DNA of 64,000 bases from assembly GCF_000172635.2 (NCBI RefSeq), contig NC_018632.1, positions 4,278,001-4,342,000 of the forward strand, in the 5' to 3' direction. A program made the translations under genes and the position numbers. Source of the DNA: Alteromonas macleodii ATCC 27126. Its GTDB lineage: Bacteria > Pseudomonadota > Gammaproteobacteria > Enterobacterales > Alteromonadaceae. Below are positions 25,962-41,773 of this stretch, piece after piece. The notes below the pieces were generated by a model. That model had not been told where the DNA came from. It saw only the letters and a list, made by a program, of their open reading frames with translations, and ran no database searches. Position 1 is the first letter of the stretch. Each line of letters opens with the position of its first letter.

Positions 25962-26050
25962 TGAGTTAGTCTCAGCTTGATCTCCATATTCGAATAAAAT
26001 AACTCAATCAAATCTGACAGTCGCATATGTGCCAATAGTTGCCGTTGGAA
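25962..26050 (+). repeat. 89-bp dispersed repeat, copy 0
   Basis: This stretch aligns without gaps to the repeat at 26777. The two share TTAGTC at offset 5 and ATCTGACAGTC against ATCTAACAGTC at offset 51. About 34 of the 57 bases between these marks are the same, and CGTT follows at the same place. It is the most diverged plus-strand copy and lies nearest to the chromosome. Confidence 0.5.
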
Positions 26051-26187
26051 AAGCGGCACCTGCGTACATGAATCGGACATTTCATGTTCTTTCTCATGAA
26101 AGCACAAAGTGTGATTTTTCAGTAGTAACGAGCGTCACTATGAATTCGCAGTAGAAAGCTGCCAGATAAAAATAAACCCCACCCACT

Positions 26188-26217
26188 TTACAATATACCG
26201 GGGTGGGTATATTGTAA
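26188..26217. promoter_or_regulatory. Perfect 12-bp palindrome, likely operator
   Basis: TTACAATATACC and GGTATATTGTAA flank a 6-nt G-rich spacer (GGGGTG), ending 28 bases before the start codon of the 172-residue gene. The right arm contains a possible -10 (TATATT), so a bound repressor would block it. Confidence 0.6.
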
Positions 26218-26245
26218 TTATGTAACCCCAATACGGAGAATAATA

Positions 26246-26764
26246 ATGGCCCGAAAACTCAAATCCAGTTCTTTGGCTGACTTTTCAACTAAGTTAGTAA
26301 GATTTCATAAGTTACCTAATGGCACGGAAATTAGATTGTACCGAAAAAAAACGGAAAGAAGAGTCAGGTCTGATTTGACTGTAAAAAGAAAGGGCATTAA
26401 CTCGAAGAATATTGAGGTGTTCAAAGATTCGTGGAATGTAAGAGACTTTCTGGATGAGGCAAGAGCACTATTATCAACTGACGTAGAAGCTCGGGGTCTT
26501 GAAATGCAGCTGTTCGCGCCTGATGGTTCAAGAATCTACGGAAACACTTTGTTAGGTAACGTTAGAAAGTTAGAGCCAAAAATAGAAGAAGATAGCGGAA
26601 AACCACTGAATTTGTTTCTTATGCTGCTTGAGAATAGTGGCCTCGAGGATATTTCTTTACGTCAAGCTGGTAACTTATATCGTCAGATTAACGAAATCAT
26701 TGACAGTTCGTTAGAATTCTCACTGTTGGAGAATGAAAGCAAAATTATATCTGAGAGCTTATAA
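26246..26764 (+). CDS. Hypothetical accessory protein (172 aa)
   Basis: The ATG at 26246 follows ACGGAGAATAATA, a good ribosome site. The product is basic at its start (MARKLKSSSLADFSTKLVRF, then YRKKTERRVRSD) and becomes acidic and helical toward its end (LFLMLLENSGLEDIS). The N-terminal charge suggests nucleic-acid binding, but no helix-turn-helix or other fold is recognisable. It has its own palindromic operator. The 89-bp repeat begins 12 bases after its stop. It looks like a single-gene cassette. Function unknown. Confidence 0.55.
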   Translation: MARKLKSSSLADFSTKLVRFHKLPNGTEIRLYRKKTERRVRSDLTVKRKGINSKNIEVFKDSWNVRDFLDEARALLSTDVEARGLEMQLFAPDGSRIYGNTLLGNVRKLEPKIEEDSGKPLNLFLMLLENSGLEDISLRQAGNLYRQINEIIDSSLEFSLLENESKIISESL

Positions 26765-26776
26765 AAGCCCCTAACA

Positions 26777-26865
26777 TGGATTAGTCGTCACTTAACCTGA
26801 CACTTTCAGAGATAGAGCTAGACCAAATCTAACAGTCTCTTGTGTACGTACTCCGGTCGTTCAGG
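26777..26865 (+). repeat. 89-bp dispersed repeat, copy A (candidate left end of inner transposon)
   Basis: It starts TGGATTAGTC and contains CTGACACTTT at offset 21, CTAACAGTC near offset 53 and CGTTCAGG at the end. The first 73 bases match the copy at 32592 at 69 positions. CCTAACA lies directly before it, and the same seven bases directly follow the inverted copy at 41512. Confidence 0.75.
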
Positions 26866-26884
26866 AATGTTTGGTGCAATCAGC

Positions 26885-27002: not shown

Positions 27003-27800
27003 ATGGCAAAAGGAAAGCTAATTTGGCATATTGCCTGTGACGAATCTGGTATAGATGGGCAGGTATACTACGGTTTTGGTTCCTTGTGGATGAAGTACCA
27101 ACGTCGCGGCGATTTTGTTCGTATCATCAGAAATCTTAGGGAAAAGTATCGATATACAAACGAAATTAAATGGCAACGTGCTCATCAGAAAAATAACATT
27201 GATTTTTACAAAGAGCTTGCCGATGTATTTTTCAAACACGCGTGGCTGGCTTTTCATTGCATAGTTATTAGAAAAGGATTGGTAGATAAATCATTTCATG
27301 ACGGTGACTACGACCTTGCAATGCGAAAACACTTCACAACTCTTATTTCTTCAAAAATAAAAGCAGTTAAAAAAGCACATCCTAATCAGTTATCAGAATT
27401 TCGAGTCGAAGTCGACCCATTACCGTCGCGATACAATAAGGCTGACGAAGCGTTTCATACAATCGCTAACAATATCCTAAAACAAGAATTAGGCGGTGAT
27501 GCTCTGATTCAAACAGTTGTGACTAAAGACTCAAAAGATTCTCAGCAAATACAGCTGGCTGACTTTCTGTTGGGAGCAGTTATGAGCGCGTTTCAAGGAA
27601 AAGTAACCTCTGATAGAAAGCGAGATATGGCGAATCATATTGCATCATATTTAGGCTGGGACTCGCTCAAACACGACACTTGGGACTATGAGCGAAAATT
27701 TAATATTTGGTATTTTCATGATATCAGGCGAGATCAACGTGAAATTCATACGAAGAATGTAGAGCTGAGATATCCGCTCCCTGCAAAATCACTTAAGTGA
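27003..27800 (+). CDS. DUF3800 protein (RNase H-like fold)
   Basis: The 265-residue protein starts with the DUF3800 signature of an acidic pair (HIACDESGIDG, Asp13-Glu14). It ends the core with QLADFLLGAVMSAFQGK, whose Asp is the other conserved acidic residue. FRVEVDPLP holds a further Asp. These fit an RNase H-like active site. A GGAGG site lies 8 bases ahead of the ATG. It is first of three genes that probably form one operon. DUF3800 proteins occur often in defence islands and on mobile elements. A nuclease function is plausible but unproven for this protein. Confidence 0.85.
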   Translation: MAKGKLIWHIACDESGIDGQVYYGFGSLWMKYQRRGDFVRIIRNLREKYRYTNEIKWQRAHQKNNIDFYKELADVFFKHAWLAFHCIVIRKGLVDKSFHDGDYDLAMRKHFTTLISSKIKAVKKAHPNQLSEFRVEVDPLPSRYNKADEAFHTIANNILKQELGGDALIQTVVTKDSKDSQQIQLADFLLGAVMSAFQGKVTSDRKRDMANHIASYLGWDSLKHDTWDYERKFNIWYFHDIRRDQREIHTKNVELRYPLPAKSLK

Positions 27801-27814
27801 AGTAGAAAAAAAGA

Positions 27815-28570
27815 ATGAAAAAAAGTAACCACCAAGGAAAGGTGTTAAAAGATCATAAAAAAGTGGGCAAAAAGTTCATCCCCCCTTTAATGCAAATCGA
27901 CAAGATGAGAGAAACATCGTTTGTAAACGACCGGCTTCCGTGCTTAATTTGGATGTCGTCATTATATCTTCGTCTTGGCGATAGGAATGCAACTAAAGTC
28001 ATTGTTGATTTTATTGATACTGCGTATAACTGCTTTGAGGGTGAAAAAATTGCGCCGCTTCAATACATGGGTAGCTATACAACTCTGTCAGATTCAAAAA
28101 AGAATGAATTGTATGAGACATTAAGAACGAAACCATATTTCAACGACGTTTTAAGTAATCTCGAACATCAGTATCACTTATTAAAGAGCTATCCATTAGC
28201 GTTTCTTTTTTCTGAGCACCAGTATGGTGTTGACCGTGAAGATGCCATTGAAATGCTGAAAGAGGATGTAGAGGCGCTTTTGGATAGACTGTCATCAAAA
28301 GCGACCAAAGTTCAGGTTACTGCGGTTTACGCAGAGATAATATCTGGGCGAATGAAAATTTCTGCTCATATCGACTTGCCTGACTTCAATGCAATATTCA
28401 AAGCGCCAGAGTCTGATGATGCAAAGCGTGTTGCAAGTTTTGCTCGCGCTCATATCAACGGATTTGCAGCAGCTTCTTTTTTGAAAGAAATAGGGGTTCC
28501 TGAAAACAATTGGCCAGAGACTTTTTGGAATGAGGCTTTTGATTTAGATGGATGCGACAATGGATATTGA
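27815..28570 (+). CDS. Unknown protein, middle gene of DUF3800 module
   Basis: The 251-residue protein begins with a Lys-rich segment (MKKSNHQGKVLKDHKKVGKKF), then a mostly helical soluble body (LPCLIWMSSLYLRLGDRN, and EDAIEMLKEDVEALLDRLSS). No catalytic motif or membrane segment is seen. It starts 14 bases after the DUF3800 stop, and the next gene starts inside its 3' end, so the three are translationally linked. The KKVGKKFIPP start is often followed by a helical domain in proteins found next to DUF5677 proteins, but I cannot assign a family. Confidence 0.6.
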   Translation: MKKSNHQGKVLKDHKKVGKKFIPPLMQIDKMRETSFVNDRLPCLIWMSSLYLRLGDRNATKVIVDFIDTAYNCFEGEKIAPLQYMGSYTTLSDSKKNELYETLRTKPYFNDVLSNLEHQYHLLKSYPLAFLFSEHQYGVDREDAIEMLKEDVEALLDRLSSKATKVQVTAVYAEIISGRMKISAHIDLPDFNAIFKAPESDDAKRVASFARAHINGFAAASFLKEIGVPENNWPETFWNEAFDLDGCDNGY

Positions 28571-29345
28571 AGAATTAGTAAGTGGCTACGTCGATTATCT
28601 AGTGGACAGTTTCGATGAAGTTTGGACTAAAGTTAAAATTCCCGCGGATAAACTGGAGGCATTATCTGCCATTGGTGGTCTTTTATCTCGACAAATTACT
28701 CTCTCCATCGAGTTGGCTCAAGCTCCCTCAACATGGAACGGACATTCTGCACCATTATTCTTACGCTCTATGACCGATTTATATATCACGCTTGCGTGGA
28801 TGATGGATGATTTGGAAGAGCGACCCCATAAATACATTATGCATGGTCTGGGTGAAGCAAAGTTACTTATCGAACACTACAAGCTCCTGTTAGAAAAGGA
28901 GGAATATCAAGAAGACAAAGAAGATCTTCAACAAATGATAGAGTTTAGAGAGCATTGGATTAATTCACAACGCAATGAATTTTTTGTCGAAGTGGATGTT
29001 GGAACGTGGTCGAATTTAAATTGTAGGAAAATGGCGCAAGAGGCAGATTGCGAAGACCTTTATAATTTTGCTTACACGCCCTTTAGCCAAGTGGCGCATA
29101 GCATGTGGCCCCATGTTTCAGTTTACAATATGACTCGTTGCAAAAATCCACTACATAAGCACCACTTGATTCCTGCTCTACTAGACGTGCCGCTCGACCC
29201 CGACTACTTGTATAGATCCTGCAAATACGTTGACAAGACTTATCGGTTGTTTGAAAAGCACTTTGAAGTATCAATAAAACTAATGCCGCTCGATTGGTGG
29301 AACAACTATTGGGAATCTATTCCAATAGAAGAAGATGTAAAGTAG
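28548..29345 (+). CDS. DUF5677-like helical protein
   Basis: This 265-residue soluble helical protein resembles the DUF5677 family. Its segments are GGLLSRQITLSIELAQAPST, LFLRSMTDLYITLAWM, and the SQVAHSMWPHV His-containing stretch near residue 185. The frame overlaps the previous gene by 23 bases. A second ATG at 28560 is a possible start. The R-S-x-x-D-L-Y motif near residue 72 is the family hallmark. Its biochemical role is unknown. Its fixed place behind the DUF3800 gene suggests a three-part system. Confidence 0.65.
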   Translation: MDATMDIEELVSGYVDYLVDSFDEVWTKVKIPADKLEALSAIGGLLSRQITLSIELAQAPSTWNGHSAPLFLRSMTDLYITLAWMMDDLEERPHKYIMHGLGEAKLLIEHYKLLLEKEEYQEDKEDLQQMIEFREHWINSQRNEFFVEVDVGTWSNLNCRKMAQEADCEDLYNFAYTPFSQVAHSMWPHVSVYNMTRCKNPLHKHHLIPALLDVPLDPDYLYRSCKYVDKTYRLFEKHFEVSIKLMPLDWWNNYWESIPIEEDVK

Positions 29346-29361: not shown

Positions 29362-29377
29362 CGCTAAACTGGATTAG
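29362..29377 (+). repeat. 16-bp direct repeat, left border of mer IS
   Basis: CGCTAAACTGGATTAG lies directly before the IS tip. The identical 16 bases follow the other tip at 32584-32599. This is the expected target-site duplication, and its length is within the broad range seen for ISNCY-type elements. Confidence 0.85.
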
Positions 29378-29545
29378 TGTGATTACCAAGGGATTATGTC
29401 GGTCTAATTACCGAGCGACTTTGTCGCATTTAAGGTAACAGTTAGTATTATCCACTTCAATAAATATGCAAATATTTCCTTTGAAGCATGAGTTAATTAG
29501 ACGTTTTGTATATTATTGAATTAACCAGAATATTAAAGGTAGCCA

Positions 29546-29929
29546 ATGTATACAATCAGTAAACTCGCCAAAGAGGCAAATGTTGGTGTAGAGACCGTTC
29601 GTTTCTATGAACGCAAAGGCTTACTTGAACAACCCATCAAACCGATACAGGGATACAGGCAATATACAGAACAAGCACTTTCAAGACTATTGTTCATAAA
29701 GCGTGCACAGTATTTAGGTTTTACATTGGCGGAAATATCATCATTATTAATATTAAGTGCTAGTAATTGTGAAGATGTTCAGCAACTCGCTGAGCAAAAG
29801 CTTGCAGTAATTGAAGATAAGTTAAGAGATTTGCTTAACCTTAAAGACAGCCTTGTCTCGCTCATTTCAGACTGTAAAACTAATCCAAGTGATAAAGATT
29901 GCCCAATCATTCAGTCACTTCAACCGTAA
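29546..29929 (+). CDS. merR: Mercury-responsive MerR regulator
   Basis: The 127-residue regulator has the MerR winged helix at residues 1-65 (ANVGVETVRFYERKGLL). All three mercury-binding cysteines are in place: one in SNCEDVQQLAEQKL, and a pair nine apart in DCKTNPSDKDCPII. It binds the 20-bp-spaced promoter at 29943, located just past its own stop, and drives merT onward. Unlike most mer operons it is not divergent from merT but co-directional. Slightly shorter than Tn501 MerR. Expected to be functional. Confidence 0.9.
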   Translation: MYTISKLAKEANVGVETVRFYERKGLLEQPIKPIQGYRQYTEQALSRLLFIKRAQYLGFTLAEISSLLILSASNCEDVQQLAEQKLAVIEDKLRDLLNLKDSLVSLISDCKTNPSDKDCPIIQSLQP

Positions 29930-29942
29930 AATGACTCATCAC

Positions 29943-29974
29943 TTGACTCCGTACCCATATACGGAGTTTATGCT
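29943..29974 (+). promoter_or_regulatory. MerR-type promoter/operator for merT
   Basis: TTGACT (-35, 29943-29948) and TATGCT (-10, 29969-29974) are 20 bases apart. That is longer than usual and typical of MerR-activated promoters. Between them lies the dyad ACTCCGTA / TACGGAGT with a 6-nt spacer, as in mer operators. Confidence 0.9.
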
Positions 29975-30006
29975 GTGCTTAAAAGAACAGTGTAATAAAC
30001 GTAAAT

Positions 30007-30351
30007 ATGGCAAAAAGTAGTCAACTATCAATCTTAGGCGGGCTTGCCGCAGCAATCGGTGCAAGTGCCTGCTGTGCCGGGCCTCTTGTTTTACTTTTAT
30101 TGGGTATAAGTGGTTCATGGATTAGTCATTTAACACTCTTAGACCCTTATCGTCCTATTTTTATATTCGTGGTTGTAGTTTTATTTGGCTTTGCTGGGTG
30201 GAAGATACATCAGCCTGTTGAAAACTGTGCGGATGACGAGGCTTGTGCAGTCCCAAAGGTAAGAACACGACGAAAAGCAGTATTTTGGTTTACCACACTG
30301 TTGGCGTTTGTTTTTGTTACCAGCAACTACTGGATCATATGGGTCGTGTAG
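30007..30351 (+). CDS. merT: Mercuric ion membrane transporter MerT
   Basis: The 114-residue inner-membrane protein has three predicted helices. The first carries the vicinal Cys pair (IGASACCAGPLVLLLLG). The cytoplasmic loop has a second pair (NCADDEAC). Both pairs are the mercury relay of MerT. It takes Hg(II) from MerP and passes it into the cytoplasm. The merP gene follows after 32 bases. The element has no merA, so the fate of imported mercury is unclear unless a reductase lies elsewhere in the genome. Confidence 0.9.
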   Translation: MAKSSQLSILGGLAAAIGASACCAGPLVLLLLGISGSWISHLTLLDPYRPIFIFVVVVLFGFAGWKIHQPVENCADDEACAVPKVRTRRKAVFWFTTLLAFVFVTSNYWIIWVV

Positions 30352-30383
30352 GTGCTACCACTTAACTCTAATTGGAGAGAAAA

Positions 30384-30659
30384 ATGAAGAAGTTATTGAT
30401 TACAACTTTATTGTTGATAAGCAGCACGGCGACGTTTGCAAAAGATGTAACTGTTACGTTAGAAGTTCCGTCTATGGATTGTGTAACGTGCCCGATAACA
30501 GTAGAAAAAGCACTTGAGCGCGTTAAAGGCGTTAAACAAGTGGAAGTGACATTTGAAAATAAACTTGCTGTTGTAACATTTGACGATGAGATAACAAATC
30601 CTGATGCACTAACAAAGGCTACAAAGAATGCTGGTTATCCTTCATTAGTGAAGTCGTAA
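30384..30659 (+). CDS. merP: Periplasmic mercury-binding protein MerP
   Basis: The ATG at 30384 has a GGAGAG site 8 bases ahead. An earlier frame start at 30372 is rejected. The 91-residue protein has a signal peptide (MKKLLITTLLLISSTATFA) and an HMA domain with the metal motif MDCVTCPITVEKAL (two Cys, three apart). MerP binds Hg(II) in the periplasm and hands it to MerT. It is complete. Confidence 0.92.
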   Translation: MKKLLITTLLLISSTATFAKDVTVTLEVPSMDCVTCPITVEKALERVKGVKQVEVTFENKLAVVTFDDEITNPDALTKATKNAGYPSLVKS

Positions 30660-30708
30660 GGCCGTCGCTAGTTGAACGATATTGAAACCCTCAGAGGAAC
30701 ACAAAACT

Positions 30709-30921
30709 ATGGCGAAAATAGAACTCTCATCGACGATTACTTGCCCACATTGCGATTACAGCCAGCAAGAAGAAATGCCAACCACTGCATGCCAATTTTT
30801 TTATGAATGCACTAAATGTAAAACACTGCTAAAGCCTTTGAGCGGCGACTGCTGCGTTTATTGCTCATATGGAACAGTGAAGTGCCCTCCAATTCAAGAG
30901 GGCAACAGTTGTTGTAATTGA
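30709..30921 (+). CDS. GDCCVxC domain protein of mer operons
   Basis: The ATG at 30709 gives a 70-residue cysteine-rich protein, after AGAGGA a short way upstream. It has CPHCD near the start, CTKC in the middle and the diagnostic GDCCVYC, with CCN at the end. The family is linked to mercury operons. Its mechanism is not settled, but the Cys spacing suggests binding of Hg(II). It is last in the passenger operon. Confidence 0.9.
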   Translation: MAKIELSSTITCPHCDYSQQEEMPTTACQFFYECTKCKTLLKPLSGDCCVYCSYGTVKCPPIQEGNSCCN

Positions 30922-30951
30922 AAAGTAGTCAGTTAAACAACTGGCTATTTA

Positions 30952-32463
30952 TTATGCTGATTCATGCAAAGCTAGTGATCTCTCAATTCTCAGTGCGGTT
31001 GTATTCATATCATTTCTCAACCACATACTGCGCACGCCATTTGGGCTAACATCAATGCCTAATGCTTCTGTTAGCTTATGTGCCACCTTCTGCTGACCAA
31101 GGTGAGGATGTTCAAGAGAGAACTCGATTACCGCTTTCTCGATTTCCATATCTACACAGTTTTTATGCCGTATGTTAGGCGTTTCTTGCCGTTTTAGCGC
31201 ATCAGGGCCACCTCGCTTAACCATTCTTAAGTGCCGATGAATAGTGTCTCGTGAGACGCCACTTTGGCGTGATGCAGCACTGACGCTTCCGAGCTTTTCG
31301 ATTAACGCTAATACTTCAAGTTTCTTCTGTACTGCCAAGTCTTCTGATGCCAGTTTGCTTGGCTCATTAACTTCCGAGATCTTCAGTTTGCGACCAGCGA
31401 AGTGAGCGGTAAACCCTTTTTTACTCGTGTTCCTTATCTCGATTTTCTGATTGGCAATGGAGTGCTTGAGCGGTGAATCAATGAGGTAGAATTTGTTGCC
31501 ATAACTGAAGGTATGGTCGTTACGTATTTTACGATGGTCTTTAATGACGCAGATATCATCAAGGTTGATGTGTTTTGACAGAGGCGTAAATTCAGGTGCT
31601 TGCTTTGATTTCACTTGGACTTTCGACTGCCAGAACTGCGGAATGAAGACATGCTTAAGGTAAGCATTGGCAGCGGCGATATCGTTGATATTGTTCAACC
31701 TAAGTTCGGGCACCAACCTGTCTTGGAAGGTTTCGAACGCTCGTTCAACGCGCCCTTTACCTTGTGGGGAATTGGCAAAGATAATTTCAATGCCCAGCTC
31801 CTCACAAGCGCGTTGCATTTGTGAGAAGTTACAACGCTTAGGCCCACCATAGATTCCGGCTCTGTCCACATAAAGTGTTTTAAACACACCTTTCTTTTCA
31901 AGGCAGTCACGCATGACTTTCAAACATCCAACGGTGGTCTCTGATGGGAAGAATTCAGCATAAACTTCACTGGTGGCATCATCTATCATCGCAATGAGAC
32001 AATGCTTTTTGTTACCAAACCAACGGTGCGGACTACCATCCATTTGCATCATTAAGCCCGGTGCGGCCATACGTTCTCTGCGTTTACGAACATGGCTACG
32101 ACGACGCTTAGCTCGCTTTACATGATGAATATCGTGCGCCCAACCACGTAAGGTCTCACGCTTAACAACAATGTGTTCATTCTCAGCCAACTGCTCGGCT
32201 AAGTGCAGTAAATTCAAATCAAAATACTTATCCTTAATTAACGCTTGAACGGCTTTTTTTATCGAAATAGGCGTTTTATTCGGGGGTGATTTACCGCAAT
32301 TACCATGCACCACAAACTGAATACCGACTTCTTGATAGCGTTTTATATAGCGTTCAATTGAACGTCGGGATTTATTGAGTAACTTGGTAGCATTGGCAAT
32401 CGATATTTTACCTTCAACCACTTTAGCTATTATATCAACGGTGAGTTGAGCTTTAGAATCCAT
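30952..32463 (-). CDS. ISNCY family DDE transposase
   Basis: The ATG at 32463 has a GAGG site 9 bases ahead. The protein is 503 residues. An N-terminal helix-turn-helix (KISIANATKLLNKSRRSIER) binds the ends. The RNase H-like core has the DDE triad at Asp142 (MMQMDGSPHRWFG), Asp200 (YVDRAG) and Glu240 (GRVERAFE). A second helix-turn-helix lies near 390 (GSVSAASRQSGVSRDTI). All catalytic residues are present, with no frameshift, so the element may still be mobile. Read inward from the right tip, toward the mer genes. Confidence 0.92.
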   Translation of the reverse strand: MDSKAQLTVDIIAKVVEGKISIANATKLLNKSRRSIERYIKRYQEVGIQFVVHGNCGKSPPNKTPISIKKAVQALIKDKYFDLNLLHLAEQLAENEHIVVKRETLRGWAHDIHHVKRAKRRRSHVRKRRERMAAPGLMMQMDGSPHRWFGNKKHCLIAMIDDATSEVYAEFFPSETTVGCLKVMRDCLEKKGVFKTLYVDRAGIYGGPKRCNFSQMQRACEELGIEIIFANSPQGKGRVERAFETFQDRLVPELRLNNINDIAAANAYLKHVFIPQFWQSKVQVKSKQAPEFTPLSKHINLDDICVIKDHRKIRNDHTFSYGNKFYLIDSPLKHSIANQKIEIRNTSKKGFTAHFAGRKLKISEVNEPSKLASEDLAVQKKLEVLALIEKLGSVSAASRQSGVSRDTIHRHLRMVKRGGPDALKRQETPNIRHKNCVDMEIEKAVIEFSLEHPHLGQQKVAHKLTEALGIDVSPNGVRSMWLRNDMNTTALRIERSLALHESA

Positions 32464-32583
32464 CACAATCATCCTCAACATGCCTTCTAGTATTCAAAAA
32501 ACAAAACACTAACAGGCACATAAAAAAATGACCGACAGAATCGCTTGGTAATTAAGATACGACAAAGTCGCTTGGTGTTAACA

Positions 32584-32599
32584 CGCTAAACTGGATTAG
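32584..32599 (+). repeat. 16-bp direct repeat, right border of mer IS
   Basis: This is identical to 29362-29377 and directly follows the right IS tip. The last eight bases are also the start of repeat copy B. Confidence 0.85.
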
Positions 32600-32680
32600 T
32601 CGTCACTTAACCTGACACTTTCAGAGATAGAGCTAGACCAAAATTGACAGTCTCTTGTGCACGTGAAGCAGACCTTGGCT
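32592..32680 (+). repeat. 89-bp dispersed repeat, copy B
   Basis: The first 73 bases match copy A at 69 positions. After the mer IS is removed, this copy directly follows the DUF5677 gene. A further TGACAC lies about 43 bases beyond the second internal site. This may be a third protein-binding site. Confidence 0.7.
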
Positions 32681-32799: not shown

Positions 32800-33222
32800 C
32801 TAATTCTCCGTACTAGAAGAACACACTTCTGCAATGCTATCTAATTGATGCAATACCCCGCACTCTTTAACCTTCTTATCATGATCGCAAGCAGAACGAA
32901 TTGAAATCAGTGTTTCTTGTAGTACTTTTAATTCAGCTATCCGATGTTCGATATCGTCAACATGCTTATCTATTGTAGTATTAACGTTTTCGCAGCTATT
33001 CTCTGGGTTTGCTCGGGTTTCCAGTACTAATTTAATTTCCTCGATTGTCATATCTAATGCGCGACATTGCTTTATAAACAATAACTGCTTCAGTGCATCT
33101 TCAGAGTAGCTTCGATAATTCGATGCCGTTCGCTCAGGTGCAGCCAATAGTGATTTACGCTCATAAAAACGAATTGTCTGAATACTTAACCCTGTCTTAG
33201 CTGCCAGAAGCCCAATTTTCAT
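32800..33222 (-). CDS. cadR: CadR/PbrR-type MerR regulator
   Basis: The 140-residue protein has the MerR helix-turn-helix (KTGLSIQTIRFYERKSLL). Its cysteines suit Cd/Pb sensing: one in NSCENVN near residue 77, and a pair in ACDHDKKVKECGV near 112. A Cys/Ser-rich tail (EVCSSSTEN) follows. It faces the CDF gene, and its operator (33240-33270) lies in the shared gap. It probably switches the efflux operon on when cadmium, lead or zinc is high. Confidence 0.85.
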   Translation of the reverse strand: MKIGLLAAKTGLSIQTIRFYERKSLLAAPERTASNYRSYSEDALKQLLFIKQCRALDMTIEEIKLVLETRANPENSCENVNTTIDKHVDDIEHRIAELKVLQETLISIRSACDHDKKVKECGVLHQLDSIAEVCSSSTEN

Positions 33223-33239
33223 TTTAACTTGCCTAAAGC

Positions 33240-33270
33240 TTGACTCTATACCAAGTATAGAGTTTACACT
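33240..33270 (+). promoter_or_regulatory. CadR-type promoter/operator
   Basis: TTGACT and TACACT are 19 bases apart. Between them lies the dyad ACTCTATA / TATAGAGT with a 5-nt spacer, as expected for a MerR-family regulator that twists DNA. Confidence 0.9.
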
Positions 33271-33301
33271 CGCGTTATAGGTGAGTAAAGCGAGTGTTTT
33301 T

Positions 33302-33928
33302 ATGAGTGGTTGTGGGTGCGAAATTGAGATAAAAGACCAAGAACAAAAGGCAGTTCTCTACTGGCTATTGGGCATCAATGCTGTGATGTTTATCATTGAA
33401 ATGAGTGTAGGGTTACTCGCTGACTCAACAGCACTTATTGCAGACTCCCTTGATATGTTGGCTGACGCAGTCGTTTACGGTGTTGGTATATATGCAGTAG
33501 GGAAAACAATTGTTCACAAAGCCAATGCTGCAAAGGTAAGTGGATATTTTCAATTGGCATTAGGCCTATTAATTTTGTTTGACATAGCTCGTCGCGCAAC
33601 CTTTGGAAGTGGGCCTGAATCTATGCTTATGATGGGCATGGGCGGTGTTGCACTTATCGCTAACGTTATATGTTTGGCGATAATCAGAAAACAAAAAAAT
33701 GGCGAGGTGCATATGCGAGCAAGTTGGATATTCTCGGCAAACGACGTCATTGCAAACATAGGAGTGATATTGGCGGGTGTGATGGTTTATCTATTCGATA
33801 CTCGTTGGCCTGATTTGGTCATAGGTTTTATTGTGTCTATCGTTGTGTTACGAGGCGCAGTCTTAATTCTAAAAGACGCCAGACAGGAATTCCGTGAAAA
33901 CAGCTCGACGAATGGAGAGATCGTATGA
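33302..33928 (+). CDS. Cation diffusion facilitator-type transporter (short)
   Basis: ATG 33302 starts MSGCGCEIE. A GTG at 33281 lies only 11 bases past the -10 and is unlikely. The product is a membrane protein of about 208 residues with six helices. It has CDF-like acidic motifs (ADSLDMLADAVVYG and FSANDVIANIG). The usual C-terminal metal-binding domain is missing. The N-terminal CGC could bind metal. It is first of an operon with DUF3703, a full CDF and czcCBA. Export of Cd, Zn or Co is likely. Confidence 0.8.
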   Translation: MSGCGCEIEIKDQEQKAVLYWLLGINAVMFIIEMSVGLLADSTALIADSLDMLADAVVYGVGIYAVGKTIVHKANAAKVSGYFQLALGLLILFDIARRATFGSGPESMLMMGMGGVALIANVICLAIIRKQKNGEVHMRASWIFSANDVIANIGVILAGVMVYLFDTRWPDLVIGFIVSIVVLRGAVLILKDARQEFRENSSTNGEIV

Positions 33929-34290
33929 ATTTCACTCAAGCAGCAAAACCTTACATACTTCAAAAACTGAGCGCCGCGCATCAATCCCTTTCGAACAATG
34001 ACAATAAAGCAGGATTTAAGGCCTTAGAGGATGCTCATGTCATCGGTCAGCACTCAACATACCACCACACACGAGTGCATTATGAAATGCTTAAATTTGG
34101 AATAGAACGCCGCGACCTTAAAGAGATATTTGGACAAATTTTTAGAATGCTAGGTGCGCTGACTAAAACTCCAATTGGCTTATTGCCTGAGGGCAATACT
34201 GGTGGGGCAAACGTGAGTCCATTCAAGTCAATGTCTATTTCACCCGAAAACAAAGCCATATTGGAAAAAATTAGAAATGCACAGTCATAA
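33925..34290 (+). CDS. DUF3703 family protein
   Basis: The 121-residue soluble protein overlaps the CDF stop by 4 bases. It has the family pattern: a helical start with AHVIGQHSTYHHTRVHYEML, and the C-terminal GNTGGANVSPFK motif. DUF3703 genes are usually found in metal-resistance operons, but the function is not known. Histidines in the middle could bind metal. The following CDF gene overlaps by 14 bases, so translation is coupled. Confidence 0.85.
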   Translation: MNFTQAAKPYILQKLSAAHQSLSNNDNKAGFKALEDAHVIGQHSTYHHTRVHYEMLKFGIERRDLKEIFGQIFRMLGALTKTPIGLLPEGNTGGANVSPFKSMSISPENKAILEKIRNAQS

Positions 34291-35176
34291 CCATTCACAC
34301 TCGCAAGAGAATTCAACCGACGCGTCTAAACGTATTGGATGGGCGTTTTTCTTAAATGTGGTGTTCACTGTTATTGAATTCATTGGTGGATGGCTTACCA
34401 ACAGCACCGCTATTATGGCTGACGCAGTGCACGATTTGGGTGATAGTCTTTCCATTGGTACAGCGTGGGGATTAAACAAGCTTAGCGATAAAGATTCTAA
34501 TCAAACATTCTCATACGGCTACAAAAGATTTTCCTTACTCGGTGCATTGATTAACGGTATTGTGCTGACGGTAGGCTCCATTTGGATATTGCTTGAAGCG
34601 ATACCTCGTTTGGCTGAGCCTGAAATGCCCCAAGTTGAAGGGATGGTTTTATTGTCTATCTTTGGGATGGCAGTAAACGGCTTTGCGGCTTATAAACTGA
34701 GTGAGGGAGACTCATTAAATGAGCGAGTCCTCAACTGGCATTTGCTGGAAGATGTGCTTGGTTGGGTAGCAGTATTTATCGTGTCCATCGTCTTAATGTT
34801 TAAGCCTTGGCCTATTTTAGATCCAATCTTATCCATTGGCTTTACTTTGTTCATCCTTTTCAATGTGTTCCGCAATCTCAAAGAAACCCTAATGCTGTTT
34901 TTGCAAGCAACGCCCGATGAAGAACAGCTTTCAAAGATTCGAAGCGATTTACTGGCAAACGATAAGGTAAGTGATCTTCATCATTTTCATATTTGGTCTC
35001 TAGACGGTGAGCGTAACGTAATGACGGTCCATCTTGTTCTTGATGAAGATGTCAGTCTTGAGCACCTCCAATCACTCAAAGAAAACATACACAGTTCGTT
35101 AGAAAAGTATAAATTTGAACATACGACAGTTGAGCTGGAGTTTGCTAATGAACAATGTCGTGACGAAGTGAATTAG
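34277..35176 (+). CDS. czcD: CzcD/ZitB-type cation diffusion facilitator
   Basis: The 299-residue transporter has six helices. The paired metal-site motifs are present: HDLGDSLSIG (helix 2) and HLLEDVLGW (helix 5). A cytoplasmic domain carries HHFHIWSLDGERN. An N-terminal His tail (MHSHNHSHSQ) is typical of zinc exporters. It expels Zn(II), Cd(II) or Co(II) in exchange for protons. It overlaps DUF3703 and precedes the periplasmic His-rich protein, all in one operon. Confidence 0.9.
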   Translation: MHSHNHSHSQENSTDASKRIGWAFFLNVVFTVIEFIGGWLTNSTAIMADAVHDLGDSLSIGTAWGLNKLSDKDSNQTFSYGYKRFSLLGALINGIVLTVGSIWILLEAIPRLAEPEMPQVEGMVLLSIFGMAVNGFAAYKLSEGDSLNERVLNWHLLEDVLGWVAVFIVSIVLMFKPWPILDPILSIGFTLFILFNVFRNLKETLMLFLQATPDEEQLSKIRSDLLANDKVSDLHHFHIWSLDGERNVMTVHLVLDEDVSLEHLQSLKENIHSSLEKYKFEHTTVELEFANEQCRDEVN

Positions 35177-35195
35177 GCTTGGTAACCTTTCATAC

Positions 35196-35573
35196 ATGAA
35201 AAATCTAAAACGCATAAGTTACATCGTGATCTCGCTGATACTCTTTCAGTCGTTTTCTGCTGTGGCGAATTCGTTAGATTTTCATGCAATAGACATTCAG
35301 CACTTGCAACACGAGCATAAGCATTCTGAGCACGAGCAAGTGCAGTCTGAGCTGTCTGCCAATGAAACCAGTGATAAAGTAAGTACAGAGCACCACAATC
35401 CTGCTGATTGTCACCATTGCGGCCACTGCCATGGCACACATGCACAATGGGTCAGTCAGAGTCATATCAACAGTCTGAAAACAGTGGTTTCAGTCCACAA
35501 TTTCAACTATTTAGATGCGGTAATTGACGCACCTATTAACCGCTTACTTCGCCCCCCCAAAATTACTTCCTAG
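35196..35573 (+). CDS. His-rich periplasmic protein, CzcI-like
   Basis: The 125-residue protein has a signal peptide (residues 1-24, ending SAVANS). Its mature part is full of histidine (HLQHEHKHSEHEQ, and HNPADCHHCGHCHGTH). It lies between czcD and czcC, where metal-inducible periplasmic proteins such as CzcI are found. Sequence similarity to CzcI is weak, so the name rests on position and composition. It probably binds or buffers zinc or cobalt in the periplasm. Confidence 0.6.
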   Translation: MKNLKRISYIVISLILFQSFSAVANSLDFHAIDIQHLQHEHKHSEHEQVQSELSANETSDKVSTEHHNPADCHHCGHCHGTHAQWVSQSHINSLKTVVSVHNFNYLDAVIDAPINRLLRPPKITS

Positions 35574-35645
35574 TACGTTTTTTCGATAGCACCGCGCTGA
35601 TAACACTCGCGATGCTAAATATTGATAAATTATTAGGATATTCCA

Positions 35646-37043
35646 ATGAAAATGTTTCCTATTTTCGGGCATGCATCTGCCATTGTGTGCAGTTGCATAC
35701 TGGGCTTATTACTCAGTCCACCGACCGCTCATGCGGCGAAAACCAACAGATTTGTAGACAAAAGTGTCCAAGCGCCCATACGAGAAACGCTGACTCTTGA
35801 GGACGCTATTAGACTAACACTTGCCAATAATCCAAGTCTGTATGAGTTTAAATTTAAACAACGTGTTATAGACGGAGAGTCAAAAACGGCGGCGCTTAAA
35901 CCCGCATTGAATGCAGGGGTTGAATTAGAGAACTTTTTGGGAACTGGCGAGGTATCAGGTCTCAAAGAGCTTGAAGTTACCTTGACATTATCATCAGTGT
36001 TACAGCTCAATGATAAGCCAGCAGCAAGGTTGAATGTACTCTCTGAACGAAGAATACAGCAAGATGTTGAAAAGCGAATACTCACCTTAGATATCCTCGG
36101 TGAGCTTAATCGTCGTTACATCAAAGTACTCGTATTGCAGGCGAACTTAGACGTCATAAAAGATGCAGAGGCACTTGCACTTTATACATTGAATGCCGTA
36201 ACGAAACGCGTTGAAGCAGGCGCGTCCCCCTTGTTAGAACAAAAACGTGCCCAAGCTGCGCTGGCCCAAGCAAAGCTCGATGTTAATCTAGCTCAACAGG
36301 ACCTAACGTTTGCCTTGCGCAGTTTATCCATCATGTGGGGGGAGCAGGTACCGAGCTTTAAGCGTGTGGAAGGCGATCTTTTTGCTTTTAATAAGATTGA
36401 GTCGTTTGATGCGCTGGCAGTCGCAATCCAAAATAGCCCTCACATTGACCTATACGCTAAACAAAGCCGTGTGCAAGCGGCGCAGCTTCGTTTAGTGCAA
36501 GCGAATAACCGCGCTGATATTGAGTGGTCAGCGGGGCTTCGCAGAATGCAAGGTATTGATGAAACAGCACTGGTTGCCGGAGTAAGCGTTCCATTGTTTC
36601 AAAAAGAACGAAACCTTGGTGAATATGAAGCAAACAGGGCACGTCTTGACGCAATAGAGCAGCAAAGACAAAGCAACGTTCGAAGCCTATTACATTCAGT
36701 TAATCAAGCGTTAGGCGAACATACACGAGCATTGCTAGAGATTGACACACTTCAGCGCAAGGTGATTCCTCCGTTAAAGGGCGCGTTAGATTTAGTCGAG
36801 AACGCCTATTTGGAGGGCCGTTTCAGCTACTTGGAATGGGTAACTACTCGACAAGAATTTCTGACAACCCGGCTGACATTAATAGAGGCAGCGTCTCAAG
36901 TTCACTTAAGCAAAACAGAAATTGAAACACTCACAGGTCTCGCGCTGACGAATGAGCACAATGATGACTCATTTCACCCAAGTCACAAAAGCAATTGGCA
37001 GCAGTCATCTAACATTTCGATAAGAAGTCATGATTATGAATAA
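35646..37043 (+). CDS. czcC: TolC-family outer-membrane efflux protein (CzcC-like)
   Basis: The 465-residue protein has a signal peptide ending in AHAAK, then two TolC-type repeats with long coiled coils (LTLEDAIRLTLANNPSLYEF, then VNAVTKR and EGRFSYLEWVTTRQEFLTTR). It forms the outer-membrane channel for the CzcBA pump. The adaptor gene overlaps by 14 bases. Position before czcB and czcA matches the usual czcCBA order. Confidence 0.9.
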   Translation: MKMFPIFGHASAIVCSCILGLLLSPPTAHAAKTNRFVDKSVQAPIRETLTLEDAIRLTLANNPSLYEFKFKQRVIDGESKTAALKPALNAGVELENFLGTGEVSGLKELEVTLTLSSVLQLNDKPAARLNVLSERRIQQDVEKRILTLDILGELNRRYIKVLVLQANLDVIKDAEALALYTLNAVTKRVEAGASPLLEQKRAQAALAQAKLDVNLAQQDLTFALRSLSIMWGEQVPSFKRVEGDLFAFNKIESFDALAVAIQNSPHIDLYAKQSRVQAAQLRLVQANNRADIEWSAGLRRMQGIDETALVAGVSVPLFQKERNLGEYEANRARLDAIEQQRQSNVRSLLHSVNQALGEHTRALLEIDTLQRKVIPPLKGALDLVENAYLEGRFSYLEWVTTRQEFLTTRLTLIEAASQVHLSKTEIETLTGLALTNEHNDDSFHPSHKSNWQQSSNISIRSHDYE

Positions 37044-37965
37044 ATTCACAATACAAAAAGTACTTATTTCTATCTTCACCCTTAGCCTTTATAGCCTAAC
37101 CGCAATCGCAGGAGGTAAACACAGTGATGTAAGTTCCAGCGATCAAGACAATCACGCAGGTGAAGTCGTAAGAATGAGCAATGAAACAGCAATTCAGAAT
37201 GGTATTTCTGCAACTCCCGTGCTCGCACGCGATATTGCGTTAACGAGTACGCTTTATGGGCGAATTAGTGCAGACCCCGCCTCATTAAGTCATATAAGAG
37301 CACGGTTTGACGGTGTTATTAAAGATGTAAAAGTCAACATTGGCGATTCCGTTAAGAAAGGTGATATTTTAGCGGTTGTTGAGTCCAATGAGAGTTTAAA
37401 AAGTTATTCCATCACGTCACCTTTTGATGGCAATGTGATTGCGCGACATGCGAATAATGGTGAGTTATCAAACGGGCAAGTACTTTTTTCGTTAGCTAAC
37501 TATAAAAACGTATGGGCACAGCTGACCGTTTTTTCACAAATGCTTAGCAGCATCAAGGTTGGACAGTCAGTTGAACTAAGCCACGCAGGTTTCAACCAAA
37601 CCTCCAAGATTGCATATATTACGCCTTCAGCTGATGGCAATCCACACTCTCTTGCCAATGTAGCTGTCGATAATAGTACTGGATATTGGCCACTCGGTAC
37701 GCTGGTCAAAGCACAAGTTACGACGTCAACTAAGTCAGTAAGTCATTCGGTTCCTCTATCTTCTGTGCAAGAGTATGAAGCCAAACAAGTTGTTTTTGTG
37801 GTTGAGGGTGATGAGTATGCGCCCAGAGCGGTAGAGCTTGGTGTCTCAGATGGTCACTATATCGAGGTTATCAGTGGCCTTGAAGCAGGCGAACGCGTCG
37901 TGGCTTCCAATAGCTACATAATTAAAGCAGATTTGGAAAAATCGGAGGCAGGCCATGATCATTAA
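37030..37965 (+). CDS. czcB: RND periplasmic adaptor (CzcB-like)
   Basis: The 311-residue adaptor has a signal peptide (LISIFTLSLYSLTAIAGG) followed by a short His/Asp stretch. The lipoyl domain is split (RFDGVIKDVKVNIGDSVKKG, then GDILAVVESNE). A beta-barrel and a final membrane-proximal domain (GLEAGERVVAS) follow. It links CzcA to CzcC. ATG 37030 overlaps czcC. ATG 37036 is possible. Confidence 0.9.
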   Translation: MIMNKFTIQKVLISIFTLSLYSLTAIAGGKHSDVSSSDQDNHAGEVVRMSNETAIQNGISATPVLARDIALTSTLYGRISADPASLSHIRARFDGVIKDVKVNIGDSVKKGDILAVVESNESLKSYSITSPFDGNVIARHANNGELSNGQVLFSLANYKNVWAQLTVFSQMLSSIKVGQSVELSHAGFNQTSKIAYITPSADGNPHSLANVAVDNSTGYWPLGTLVKAQVTTSTKSVSHSVPLSSVQEYEAKQVVFVVEGDEYAPRAVELGVSDGHYIEVISGLEAGERVVASNSYIIKADLEKSEAGHDH

Positions 37966-38025
37966 TGCCTCACTACAACTGATATTTCCCTGTCAAATGG
38001 CGTGTAGTTCTAAGGGAGGTTTAAG

Positions 38026-41000
38026 ATGCTAGTTTCCATTATTCGTACCGCAATCGAAAAGCGCGGTATTTTTCTGATGCTTTCCTTTTTGGTGATTGGA
38101 TTAGGCCTATTCAGTTATCAAAAGCTGCCTATTGATGCCGTACCCGATATCACCAACGTTCAGGTACAAATCAACACACAAGCAGAAGGTTATTCACCGC
38201 TTGAAACTGAACAACGTATCACCTTTTTGGTAGAAAACGCTTTGGCAGGATTACCAAACTTGGACTACACACGTTCACTATCGCGCTATGGCTTATCACA
38301 AGTGACGGCCGTTTTTGAAGAAGGCACGGATCTCTATTTTGCCAGAAACCTCATAAACGAACGGCTAGGCATTATCAAAAGCCAATTGCCCGATGGTATT
38401 GAGCCTAAGATGGGGCCGATTGCCACAGGTTTGGGTGAAATTTACATGTACACGCTTAGCGCGAAGCCCGGCACAGTAACTGTCGATGGCAGAAAATTTG
38501 ATGCAATGGCGCTTCGAGAGTTACACGATTGGGTGGTGAAACCTCAACTGGCCTTGGTGAAAGGGGTAACAGAGGTTAATGCTATTGGGGGGTTTACCAA
38601 ACAGTATCATGTGAAGCCTAATCCTCAACTTATGCTTAATTACGGCGTTAGTACTGACGATTTATTGCGGGCATTAAATCGAAATAACGCTAATCAGGGC
38701 GCTGGGTACATTGAACGCAACGGCCAGCAAATACTAGTACGTTCACAAGCGAGACTTTCGAGCGTTGAGGACATCGGTAACGTGGTGGTAACGCTTACAA
38801 ACCGATCTCCCGTCACGGTAAGTGACATTGCAGAGGTCGCCATCGGTAAGGAGCTTAGAACGGGCGCTGCAACACGAGAAGGTCAAGAGACGGTGTTGGG
38901 CACAGCTATGATGCTAATAGGCGAAAATAGCCGAGCTGTTGCGCTAGACGTGGCTGATAAAGTGGATGAAATCCAAGCAAGCCTGCCAGAGGGCGTAATT
39001 ATCCAAAGTGTATACGATCGCACTACGCTCGTGGATAAAGCCATCAATACAGTACAAAAAAACCTTGTTGAAGGCGCACTACTCGTTATTGTTGTCTTAT
39101 TTTTATTGCTGGGCAATATACGGGCAGCAATTATCACCGCCGCTGTCATCCCACTTGCCATGCTTGCCACAATAATAGGCATGGTACAAACGGGCGTTAG
39201 CGCGAACCTAATGAGCTTAGGTGCGTTAGACTTTGGACTGATTGTTGACGGAGCGGTTATTATCGTCGAGAACTGTATTAGGCGATTAAGTGAATCGCAG
39301 CGGCGAACGGGTGCAATACTGCCTCTTAAAGAACGGCTGGAAGTCGTATTTGAGGCAACGAATGAGGTGATACGCCCAAGTCTATTTGGCGTGATGATAA
39401 TCACGATTGTGTACATTCCTATCTTTAGCTTAACAGGTGTCGAAGGGAAGATGTTTCACCCAATGGCGGCTACCGTAATATTGGCATTGCTAGCGGCAAT
39501 GGTATTTTCAATCACCATTGTGCCCGCAGCTGTTGCTATGTTTATGTCAGGCAAAGTCAGTGAAAAAGCGAGTCCAATAATCACTGGGGCTAAATCAGTT
39601 TACCGCCCTGTACTGGAGTGGGCATTAAAATTACGATGGTTGGTAGTAAGTGCAGCAACATTACTCGTAGTTATCAGTGTTTGGTTTGGGATGCGCCTAG
39701 GTTCTGAATTTGTGCCGCAACTAGATGAGGGTGACATAGCCCTTCATGCAATGAGAGTGCCCGGCACAGGAATTGAACAAGCTGTCGATATGCAAAAACG
39801 GCTTGAACAGGTCATTATGCAATACCCACAGGTAAACACCGTATTTGCTAAAACGGGTACTGCTGAGGTGGCTACTGATGCTATGCCACCCAACGTCACT
39901 GACACTTTTGTAATGCTAAAACCAATTGATGAATGGCCAAACCCTGCATTATCGAAAACGGAATTTGTCGAGCAATTGGAGAGGGATCTTCAAAATGTAC
40001 CCGGCAATAACTATGAGTTTACGCAACCTATACAGATGCGCTTTAACGAATTAATTAGTGGCGTTAGGGCAGATTTAGGGATCAAGATATATGGTGATGA
40101 TCTGGATAAGCTGCGGGATTCAGCTGGTGATGTTTTATCCGTATTACAAGATATTCCGGGCGCTGCTGATGCACGAGTAGAACAAGTAGATGAGATCCCC
40201 ATCTTCACGGTGAACCCGAAGCCTTATGCGCTGGCGCGTTACAACTTAGACGTAACTGACTTGCAAACGTGGTTAAGTGCATCAGTTGGCGGCAAAGAAG
40301 CTGGTTTGGTATTTGAAGGCGACAGACGCTTTGAGATTGTTGTTCGTTATCCTGAAGAGATTCGCAATGATTTAGAAGCGCTGGGAAATATACCCATCAT
40401 GACCAATGATGGTGAGTATGTGCCAATCGCCGAGGTGGCTGAGCTTGAATATACCAATATACCCAGTCAAATAAGTCGAGAAAACGCAAAACGCCGTATC
40501 GTCGTCACAGCAAATGTGAGAGATCGTGATTTAGGCTCTTTTGTCAATGATGCTAAAGAGCAAATCGCAGCCAATGTGGCACTGCCGAGTGGTTATTGGA
40601 TAAGTTATGGTGGAACGTTTGAGCAATTGGAAAGTGCAAGTCAACGACTGAGCTTGGTTGTGCCCGCAACGCTTTTCCTGATCCTTGCATTACTTGTGAT
40701 TGCATTTGGCTCAGTCAAAGACGCCTTGATAATTTTCACAGGCGTCCCTTTGGCATTAACTGGCGGCATCTTTGCTCTTTGGGTCAGAGATATGCCTCTT
40801 TCAATATCGGCAGGGATTGGTTTTATCGCGCTCTCTGGTATTGCTGTATTGAATGGTCTGGTAATGCTGTCTTTTATCAGGCAGAGGATGGAAGAGACTG
40901 GCGAGTTGGTAAACTCGATTATTGATGGTGCAATGACTCGCTTGCGGCCAGTGCTGATGACAGCGTTAGTGGCGAGTCTTGGTTTCGTGCCCATGGCGCT

Positions 41001-41133
41001 TAACGTAGGTACTGGCGCAGAGGTGCAGCGACCTCTGGCAACGGTGGTCATTGGTGGGATCATATCCTCTACCTTGTTAACTCTGGTTGTACTACCTGTA
41101 CTCTATAGACTCGTTCACTATAAGGTGAATTAG
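38026..41133 (+). CDS. czcA: Heavy-metal RND efflux pump (CzcA/CusA family)
   Basis: The 1035-residue inner-membrane pump has 12 helices and the HME-RND signature (ALDFGLIVDGAVIIVEN, holding the proton-relay Asp) near residue 405. The pore region and repeats are typical. The start (AIEKRGIFLMLSFLVIGLGL) is normal, and GGGAGG precedes the ATG. It expels divalent metals from the periplasm. Motifs fit the Co/Zn/Cd group (CzcA), but Cu/Ag cannot be excluded from sequence alone. Last gene of the metal operon. Confidence 0.92.
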   Translation: MLVSIIRTAIEKRGIFLMLSFLVIGLGLFSYQKLPIDAVPDITNVQVQINTQAEGYSPLETEQRITFLVENALAGLPNLDYTRSLSRYGLSQVTAVFEEGTDLYFARNLINERLGIIKSQLPDGIEPKMGPIATGLGEIYMYTLSAKPGTVTVDGRKFDAMALRELHDWVVKPQLALVKGVTEVNAIGGFTKQYHVKPNPQLMLNYGVSTDDLLRALNRNNANQGAGYIERNGQQILVRSQARLSSVEDIGNVVVTLTNRSPVTVSDIAEVAIGKELRTGAATREGQETVLGTAMMLIGENSRAVALDVADKVDEIQASLPEGVIIQSVYDRTTLVDKAINTVQKNLVEGALLVIVVLFLLLGNIRAAIITAAVIPLAMLATIIGMVQTGVSANLMSLGALDFGLIVDGAVIIVENCIRRLSESQRRTGAILPLKERLEVVFEATNEVIRPSLFGVMIITIVYIPIFSLTGVEGKMFHPMAATVILALLAAMVFSITIVPAAVAMFMSGKVSEKASPIITGAKSVYRPVLEWALKLRWLVVSAATLLVVISVWFGMRLGSEFVPQLDEGDIALHAMRVPGTGIEQAVDMQKRLEQVIMQYPQVNTVFAKTGTAEVATDAMPPNVTDTFVMLKPIDEWPNPALSKTEFVEQLERDLQNVPGNNYEFTQPIQMRFNELISGVRADLGIKIYGDDLDKLRDSAGDVLSVLQDIPGAADARVEQVDEIPIFTVNPKPYALARYNLDVTDLQTWLSASVGGKEAGLVFEGDRRFEIVVRYPEEIRNDLEALGNIPIMTNDGEYVPIAEVAELEYTNIPSQISRENAKRRIVVTANVRDRDLGSFVNDAKEQIAANVALPSGYWISYGGTFEQLESASQRLSLVVPATLFLILALLVIAFGSVKDALIIFTGVPLALTGGIFALWVRDMPLSISAGIGFIALSGIAVLNGLVMLSFIRQRMEETGELVNSIIDGAMTRLRPVLMTALVASLGFVPMALNVGTGAEVQRPLATVVIGGIISSTLLTLVVLPVLYRLVHYKVN

Positions 41134-41773
41134 CAGCACTGGGGCATTTGGGTTTATAAATCAATGCCCCGGATTTACTTACCCCCATGACGATCATTCG
41201 ACTTCTTTTGACAAAATGGGGAGGTGGCTCGTAAATCGCTTTGTAATAAAAATTTGGAGTTGTAGGGTTGGTTATCAATTGTAATATTCAACATTCGGCT
41301 TTTGGAGGCGCATCCTGTGGACTATTGTGGTCTGAATAACTGCTTTATGCCACTGAAGAGTCAGTCAGAATAAAGCATATTAACTTCCGCTTATGGTAAA
41401 TATCGGAATCAAGAGCAGAGAGCCCTGAACGTCTGCTGTTTGTCTATTGCCGACTGTCAGGGCAAGTCGAGACCTTTAAATCAAAGTGTCAGATTAGATA
41501 TGAGCCACTACACCTAACAATTAACTGCAAGGGACAAAGTTACGCTCCAGCCATATATGGTTTAGCATATATTGCTTCCACTCACTCCGCCCATGAGTAA
41601 GGTAATGAATGTCTTTTGCTTGTCTGAAGCGGATTTACGCAAAAATTATGTCTAATGTTCGCTTTACGCCTCATAACTGCGTGTCAGATGAGGCCTAAAA
41701 CTATTCATAAAAACTGTAGGGGCAAATATGAGCTGCTACACTTTACCCACTCGTTTTAGTTAATTTTGAATGA
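41134..41773. other. Intergenic region with repeat C and attC-like flank
   Basis: This 640-bp gap between czcA and the leftward NTPase holds copy C (41424-41512). An attC-like half (CCTAACAATTAACTGCAAGG, then GAC) runs from 41513. A 7-bp stem (GCCTCAT / ATGAGGC) lies at 41668-41694. One more CTGACAC is seen on the minus strand near 41680. No gene found. Confidence 0.5.
41424..41512 (-). repeat. 89-bp dispersed repeat, copy C (candidate right end of inner transposon)
   Basis: On the minus strand it starts TGTAGTGGCT and has CTGACACTTT at offset 21, CTGACAGTC near 53 and CGTTCAGG at the end. The spacing is identical to copy A with no gap. About 36 of 61 bases match A up to the second site. CCTAACA follows directly on the plus strand. 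Confidence 0.65.

Follow-up and report, generated by a model that had tools for sequence, protein, structure and literature searches.

A 64,000-nt stretch of the Alteromonas macleodii ATCC 27126 genome (the window; genome label G000) carries repeated units of 89 bp inside a Tn7-like element. We found that these units are very likely the left (copies 0, A, and B) and right (copy C and a further copy at 41740) ends of non-autonomous cassette transposons. The best overall explanation, to which we give a probability of about three in four, is that such cassettes are moved in trans by a transposase of the insertion sequence (IS) family IS481, that they are nested in the Tn7-like element, and that a mer-carrying transposon inserted beside copy B. 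A cassette consists of a conserved end of about 88 bp on each side of arbitrary passengers, with no transposase of its own. An IS481-type transposase supplied from elsewhere would bind the TGACA boxes of the ends and move the cassette, producing a 7-bp target duplication with a T-N-A centre. The window's cassettes sit nested within the left portion of the Tn7-like element beside glmS, and the mer-carrying IS1202-type transposon inserted 8 bp outside B, probably steered there by a C-terminal domain with homology to the IS481 DNA-binding domain.

Two end types and a 7-bp target duplication

Four copies of the unit, each starting with TG, lay at the positions and on the strands given in a preliminary description of the window: copy 0, a decayed left-type end, at 25962..26050 (+); copy A at 26777..26864 (+); copy B, which adjoins metal-efflux genes, at 32592..32679 (+); and copy C, of the right type, at 41424..41512 (-). 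The boxes it had named were likewise in place, CTGACACTTT at offset 21 (copies A, B, and C) and (C/T)T(G/A)ACAGTC at offset 53 (every copy); such fixed-spaced boxes are presumably protein-bound. A and B were nearly identical, as described (74/89 positions ungapped, 69/73 across the first 73 bases). The relatedness of 0 and C to A also held, at an ungapped identity of 54-57% (48/89 and 51/89) rather than the quoted figure of about 60%, and the chance level at random window positions was 22.6 ± 4.1 of 89. The left model scored A at E 4.6e-24 and the right model scored C at E 1.9e-25, values that are not independent because A and C belong to the models' own sequences. Copy 0 (left model, E 8.2e-7) and a second right-type end at 41653..41740 (-) (right model, E 4.7e-6; identity to C just 32/89) are outside the model sequences. 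The preliminary description had overlooked this second right-type end and also a copy of the left type outside the window, at G000:C1:2224943 of the chromosome. The two-box pattern gave four matches with up to three mismatches in the 4.65 Mb of the genome (A, B, C, and this left-type copy), and the reversed-sequence control gave none.

When 59 genomes of the genus were searched by pattern, oppositely oriented end pairs a few kb apart came up; the reversed control of this search also matched in many genomes, and the weaker rows are partly chance. The fetched pairs had a left-type (A-like) and a right-type (C-like) end, with about 88 bp conserved and unrelated sequence beyond. Sequence-only models of the ends matched 54/59 (left) and 53/59 (right) of the genus genomes at E ≤ 0.01, and 44/59 and 33/59 at E ≤ 1e-6, counts in which the training sequences come partly from those same 59 genomes and the left model also picks up some IS481 ends. 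Across 394 genomes of the order, the right model matched 30 at E ≤ 1e-5, spanning 21 of 114 genera. Plasmid searches placed ends, some of them partial, on Alteromonas, Pseudoalteromonas, Photobacterium, Pantoea, and Klebsiella plasmids as well. A cassette of G052 matched contig NZ_JAPFRE010000041.1 of Alteromonas sp. ASW11-130 at 3873/3873 bases, which identifies the genus of the 59 genomes as Alteromonas. Four loci with these ends gave no match in an Rfam scan.

Left and right ends from many genomes formed 38 distinct pairs. An exact 7-bp duplication flanked 17 of them, and duplications of 4, 5, 6, 8, 9, or 10 bp flanked none; shuffled pairings gave a mean of 0.5 exact 7-bp matches. Three of 41 pairs were dropped to reach the 38, namely L197, a repeat of L054, and the window pairs 0-C and B-C, whose right end already belongs to A-C; ends whose model match began past position 8 were left unpaired in this count. 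All 17 duplications had T as their third base and A as their fifth, giving a T-N-A centre. The window pair A-C is one of the 17, flanked by CCTAACA at 26770..26776 (+) and 41513..41519 (+). For one cassette of G026 an empty site was found in G004, where the locus was uninterrupted and held a single copy of the duplicated bases in a 218-bp alignment across the junction.

Element lengths ranged from about 190 bp to 14.7 kb. Two short elements with both end types, of 188 bp (L142:14854-15041) and 306 bp (L067:1097-1402), resembled miniature inverted-repeat transposable elements and had no exact duplication. On a 4550-bp contig (L046, G032:C16), perhaps a small circular plasmid, a 1349-bp cassette with an exact duplication spans the contig ends.

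In the window, B is a second left end inside A-C, and the flanks of B and C differ at 3/7 positions. A decayed outer cassette, running from 0 to 41740, seems to enclose A-C, the end at 41740 being the probable partner of copy 0; the flanks of this pair held no matching duplication, so we only infer the nesting of A-C in it. A 172-amino acid (aa) open reading frame (ORF) at 26246..26764 (+), taken from the ORF list and without a Pfam family, is probably cargo of the outer cassette.

The source of the transposase and the alternatives

The outer parts of the cassette ends resembled those of an IS of about 1.2 kb, whose transposase belongs to the IS481 family (289 bits, cut-off 224). When public genomes were scanned for exact copies of 26 right-end bases, at least 120 stretches came up, mostly in Gammaproteobacteria. 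Among the 80 listed, 16 loci held 17 end pairs about 1.2 kb apart, and eight pairs from separately fetched Alteromonas genomes brought the number to 25. Exact 7-bp duplications flanked 14 of the 25 (8/8 separately fetched, 6/17 from the listed loci), the 11 others including L229, a named Alteromonas contig; counted by eye, 11 of the 14 had T3/A5. The left cassette model favoured the left IS end in 12/12 copies (6.0-17.7 versus 5.3-7.0 bits), and the right model favoured the right IS end in 12/12 (10.3-13.5 versus 6.4-8.8 bits), the match being confined to the outer 27 bp or so. No transposase was common to the 29 elements that were cross-compared, among which czc sets, regulators, integron integrases, and a few other genes recurred. 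Inspection and cross-BLAST of the cargo ORFs, not all of which were profiled, revealed no IS481 transposase between cassette ends; unrelated IS transposases (IS110-, IS30-, and IS21-like, by inspection) were present inside some elements. Since the 1.2-kb IS481 element agrees with the cassettes in the outer ends and their polarity, in the length of the duplication, and in the preferred target, movement in trans by an IS481-type transposase is the best explanation, and on these sequence features it is likely that such an enzyme moves the cassettes.

Two other candidates were rejected. Another subgroup of IS481, 1023 bp long and with ends TGTGTGATTCATAGAC, had exact 7-bp duplications in 2/5 copies examined and ends unlike those of the cassettes. 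ISNCY-type proteins matched by the IS481 query were first taken as distant mobilisers, against which their duplications of 16-17 bp speak.

Several observations weigh against movement by an IS481-type transposase. The left-model preference was slight in three IS copies (6.0-6.1 versus 5.4 bits), and the IS lacks the cassette boxes at about +53 and +78. Close full-length IS481 transposases occurred in just 5/59 genomes, the A. macleodii genome not among them, and cassette-bearing G010, G018, G041, G043, and G058 gave no IS481 transposase match at all. An exact duplication was not seen in 21/38 pairs, and no empty site was found for 6/7 of the empty-site constructs.

An unseen non-IS481 transposase that specifically binds the boxes at +21, +53, and +78 would suit the conservation, in left and right ends alike, of two boxes (+53 and +78) that the IS lacks, and also the rarity of intact IS481 copies in the genus; the resemblance to IS481 would then be one of remote common descent. 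We consider this unlikely, in that duplication length, T-N-A centre, and polarity equal those of the IS, IS1202-type elements treat cassette and IS481 ends alike (see below), and the elements have no other transposase in common. Proteins with a Mu-transpos_C domain (TnsB/TniA type) were found in just 17/59 genus genomes, compared with the 44 (left) and 33 (right) that hold cassette ends at E ≤ 1e-6; a Tn552/Tn402-type TniA was rejected as mobiliser on the same count. They were present in some cassette genomes (G000, G029, and G052), and cassette-holding G006, G010, G015, G017, G018, G026, G032, G041, G043, and G058 had none.

A second alternative, compatible with movement by an IS481-type transposase, is that cargo was joined to the ends by site-specific recombination at an inner box (about +68 to +88), the ends serving as a docking frame too. 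A core of 14.6 kb, from about 26846 to 41445, was about 99.9% identical at other genomic places in G022, G032, G033, and G038, and in 4/4 genomes its homology broke off inside A and C, within their inner portions. Cargo can therefore be separated from the outer ends, and two cassettes do encode integron integrases. Recombination between related ends could give the same pattern, however, and cargo common to L043/L071 and to L064/L349 lost homology deeper, 126-260 bp from the ends. Most elements lacked a recognised recombinase, and the junction hairpin was unexceptional (z -1.7; 10/200 shuffles folded equally well). We therefore regard a docking frame as improbable, somewhat more so than an unseen transposase. 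The shared core lies at loci L311, L312, L313, L082, and L366-L369, and in G033 it is interrupted further near 28174.

The preliminary description had read the units as transposon ends with fixed-spaced boxes, which agrees with our results, and had assigned them to TnsB of the Tn7-like element, which does not. That element, of 39.6 kb, lies beside glmS and runs from window position 25899 to G000:C1:4343517. Its left end (25899..25960, +) is outside the 89-bp family; both of its ends carry TATTATATTTGGTT-like repeats and both flanks carry the 5-bp duplication CGAAT (at 25894-25898 on the left). Genes of TniQ/TnsD, TnsE, TnsC, and TnsB type are present in the window, and tnsA and glmS, both named by inspection, lie past its edge. 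At the right end (locus L003) nothing matched the 89-bp end models, an absence that the preliminary description had itself named as refuting its view. Although the units start with TG, contain repeated boxes, and lie within the Tn7-like element, the data contradict a reading of them as sites bound by TnsB or as former ends of Tn7-like elements, since the ends of the element itself, with their repeats and 5-bp duplication, are elsewhere, its right end is without a copy, and the duplication at the units is of 7 bp. Other genes of the Tn7-like element encode a type I restriction-modification system (50199-55988) and, at 41774-45550, a YobI-type ATPase (PADLOC Tmn, 254 bits).

A mer transposon at a fixed distance from end B

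At 8 bp outside B lies a mer-carrying transposon of 3205 bp (29379..32583, -). Its 17-bp duplication consists of CGCTAAACTGGATTAGT at 29362..29378 (+) and a right copy at 32584..32600 (+) made up of 8 bp of flank and the first 9 bp of B. It carries merR-like, merT-like, merP, and GDCCVxC genes (29546-30921, +; MerP and GDCCVxC over the cut-off, MerR and MerT below) and a 509-aa ISNCY-type transposase (30952-32481, -; NF033594, 420 bits, cut-off 250), a model that we take to cover the IS1202 group. Both the ISNCY/IS1202-type transposase and the 17-bp duplication, which falls within the 16-28 bp of the second group, agree with the IS1202 family. The ISNCY family match stops at residue 368, and an extra C-terminal domain follows (residues 384-500; 30982..31332, -) that is homologous to residues 9-124 of the IS481 transposase. 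Residues 377-500 aligned with residues 2-124 of that transposase at 38% identity (E 1e-21).

We compared 22 insertion sites, 15 with a transposase about 67% or more identical to that of the window over the aligned part and seven at 58-65%. The G000 insertion, common to G022, G032, G033, G038, and G044, was counted once. Excluded for want of an assessable 5' flank were G015, which lies at a contig edge, G324, G297, and copies that were partial or truncated. An IS481-type end lay at exactly 8 bp in 12/15 close-relative insertions and at 9 bp in one (G023), and two (G034 and G024) had no convincing end. Two of the 12 (G021 at 3.88 Mb and G044:C22) adjoin the internal, inverted copy of the right end of IS481 and matched less well (0.76 and 0.72); the best of 41 offsets at random window positions had a median of 0.52, a 99% level of 0.65, and a maximum of 0.96, this maximum including true ends present in the window. 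The targets were cassette left ends, one cassette right end, and both left and right IS481 ends. The same register beside cassette and IS481 ends points to recognition of both by a single kind of domain. Beyond the window, the insertions at 8 bp (once 9), all in one orientation, lie at L357, L360, L139, L350, L290, L343, L399, L345, L381, L390, L358, and L300.

None of the seven more distant relatives had an end at 8 bp; in one of them, G305, the element borders, in a different register, on sequence resembling the initial 14 bases of an IS481 right end. The C-terminal domain scored 83-96 bits against the IS481 domain in 11 close relatives, the exceptions G034 and G024 included, and 58-71 bits in five distant ones. 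These five were 65-69% identical to the window transposase over the first 370 residues and 34-40% over the C-terminus. In this C-terminal comparison G055 yielded a 36-aa fragment, and G029, G395, G085, and G431 were left out. A conserved catalytic part with a diverged C-terminus in distant, non-targeting relatives is what is expected if the C-terminal domain sets target choice. Register and domain correlation thus support the view that this domain selects the target, in which case the insertions in G034 and G024 would be stray ones. Somewhat less firmly than movement in trans by an IS481-type transposase, we favour the view that the IS1202-type transposase captured an IS481 end-binding domain, so that cassettes using a borrowed transposase are met by a transposon addressed to another's ends and riding with their cargo. 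Sequences of other kinds, in many cases small hairpins, lie beside the distant relatives (L378, L379, L380, L382, L383, L384, and L385). As judged by eye, their flanks seem to have in common a GGACA/GCCCC-like motif some 30 bp away, which may be a different target.

Passenger genes and comparison with known systems

The A-C cassette carries, at 27003..29345 (+), genes for a DUF3800 protein (PADLOC PDC-M04A), a hypothetical protein, and a DUF5677 protein (partial DitA match). At 32800..41133 a MerR-type regulator (-) is followed on the other strand (+) by two cation-efflux genes and genes for a DUF3703 protein, an outer membrane efflux protein, an HlyD-type protein, and a CusA/CzcA-type RND pump. 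Profiled cargo of the cassettes includes a CzcA-type pump, and DHFR-like, toxin-antitoxin, and acetyltransferase genes were named by inspection. A 9.7-kb cassette with an exact 7-bp duplication (L073:1377-11060) carries CBASS-type cyclase and E1-E2 genes. The integron integrases (L047:3416-4387, 464 bits; L066:4506-5465, 425 bits; TIGR02249, cut-off 265) suggest that their two cassettes may be mobile integrons bounded by cassette ends. The cassette would be a vehicle, identifiable by its end sequences alone, for some of the interchangeable genes of Alteromonas and its relatives, namely those of metal efflux, defence, toxin-antitoxin systems, and integrons. That a transposase could choose its target through a captured DNA-binding domain is in turn a simple, testable idea.

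The commonest IS481 duplication is 6 bp, according to the accessible part of PMC10045372. The cassettes are like the 1.2-kb IS481 subgroup in the outer 27 bp or so of both ends, with polarity, in the 7-bp duplication, and in its T-N-A centre, and unlike the family in having no transposase, extra conserved boxes, and cargo of up to about 14.7 kb. Integron gene cassettes are small interchangeable passenger modules with conserved borders. The dif modules described in the available text of PMC10132070 are alike in being small and swappable with conserved borders. Both differ from the present elements, which have transposon-type ends, a target duplication, and dispersed sites.

Mobile insertion cassettes are reportedly known, for example, with qnrS2 or qnrD. 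To our knowledge no IS481-type mobile insertion cassette is known, and literature searches of open-licence papers found none, nor anything on these cassettes or on IS481-end targeting. As in mobile insertion cassettes, passenger genes here lie between the ends of a known IS, with a target duplication and no transposase, the end match covering the outer part only. Mobile insertion cassettes and the TIME-COMPs of PMC13367494 also carry passengers between transposon ends and take their transposase from elsewhere. The present elements differ from both in being end-to-end elements with asymmetric ends of about 88 bp, in their genus-wide spread, and in their diverse cargo.

The accessible portion of PMC10132070 describes an ISAjo2 group of the IS1202 family that targets dif sites, and gives no target for members whose duplications are longer or absent (the long group being ISShha1, ISVbsp4, and ISVisp7). 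Length and duplication would place the mer transposon with this long group, and its insertion beside IS481-type ends is a possible answer to the question, left by that portion, of where long-duplication members aim. Like the IS1202 elements portrayed there, it has an ISNCY-type transposase, a TGT end, and a one-sided insertion at a fixed distance, here with a 17-bp duplication. Whereas the ISAjo2 group of the same account has dif at 5 bp, the flank of the mer transposon is an IS481-type end at 8 bp, no search aimed at dif sites having been made here, and it departs from the family as depicted in PMC10132070 in that its transposase bears a C-terminal IS481-like domain.

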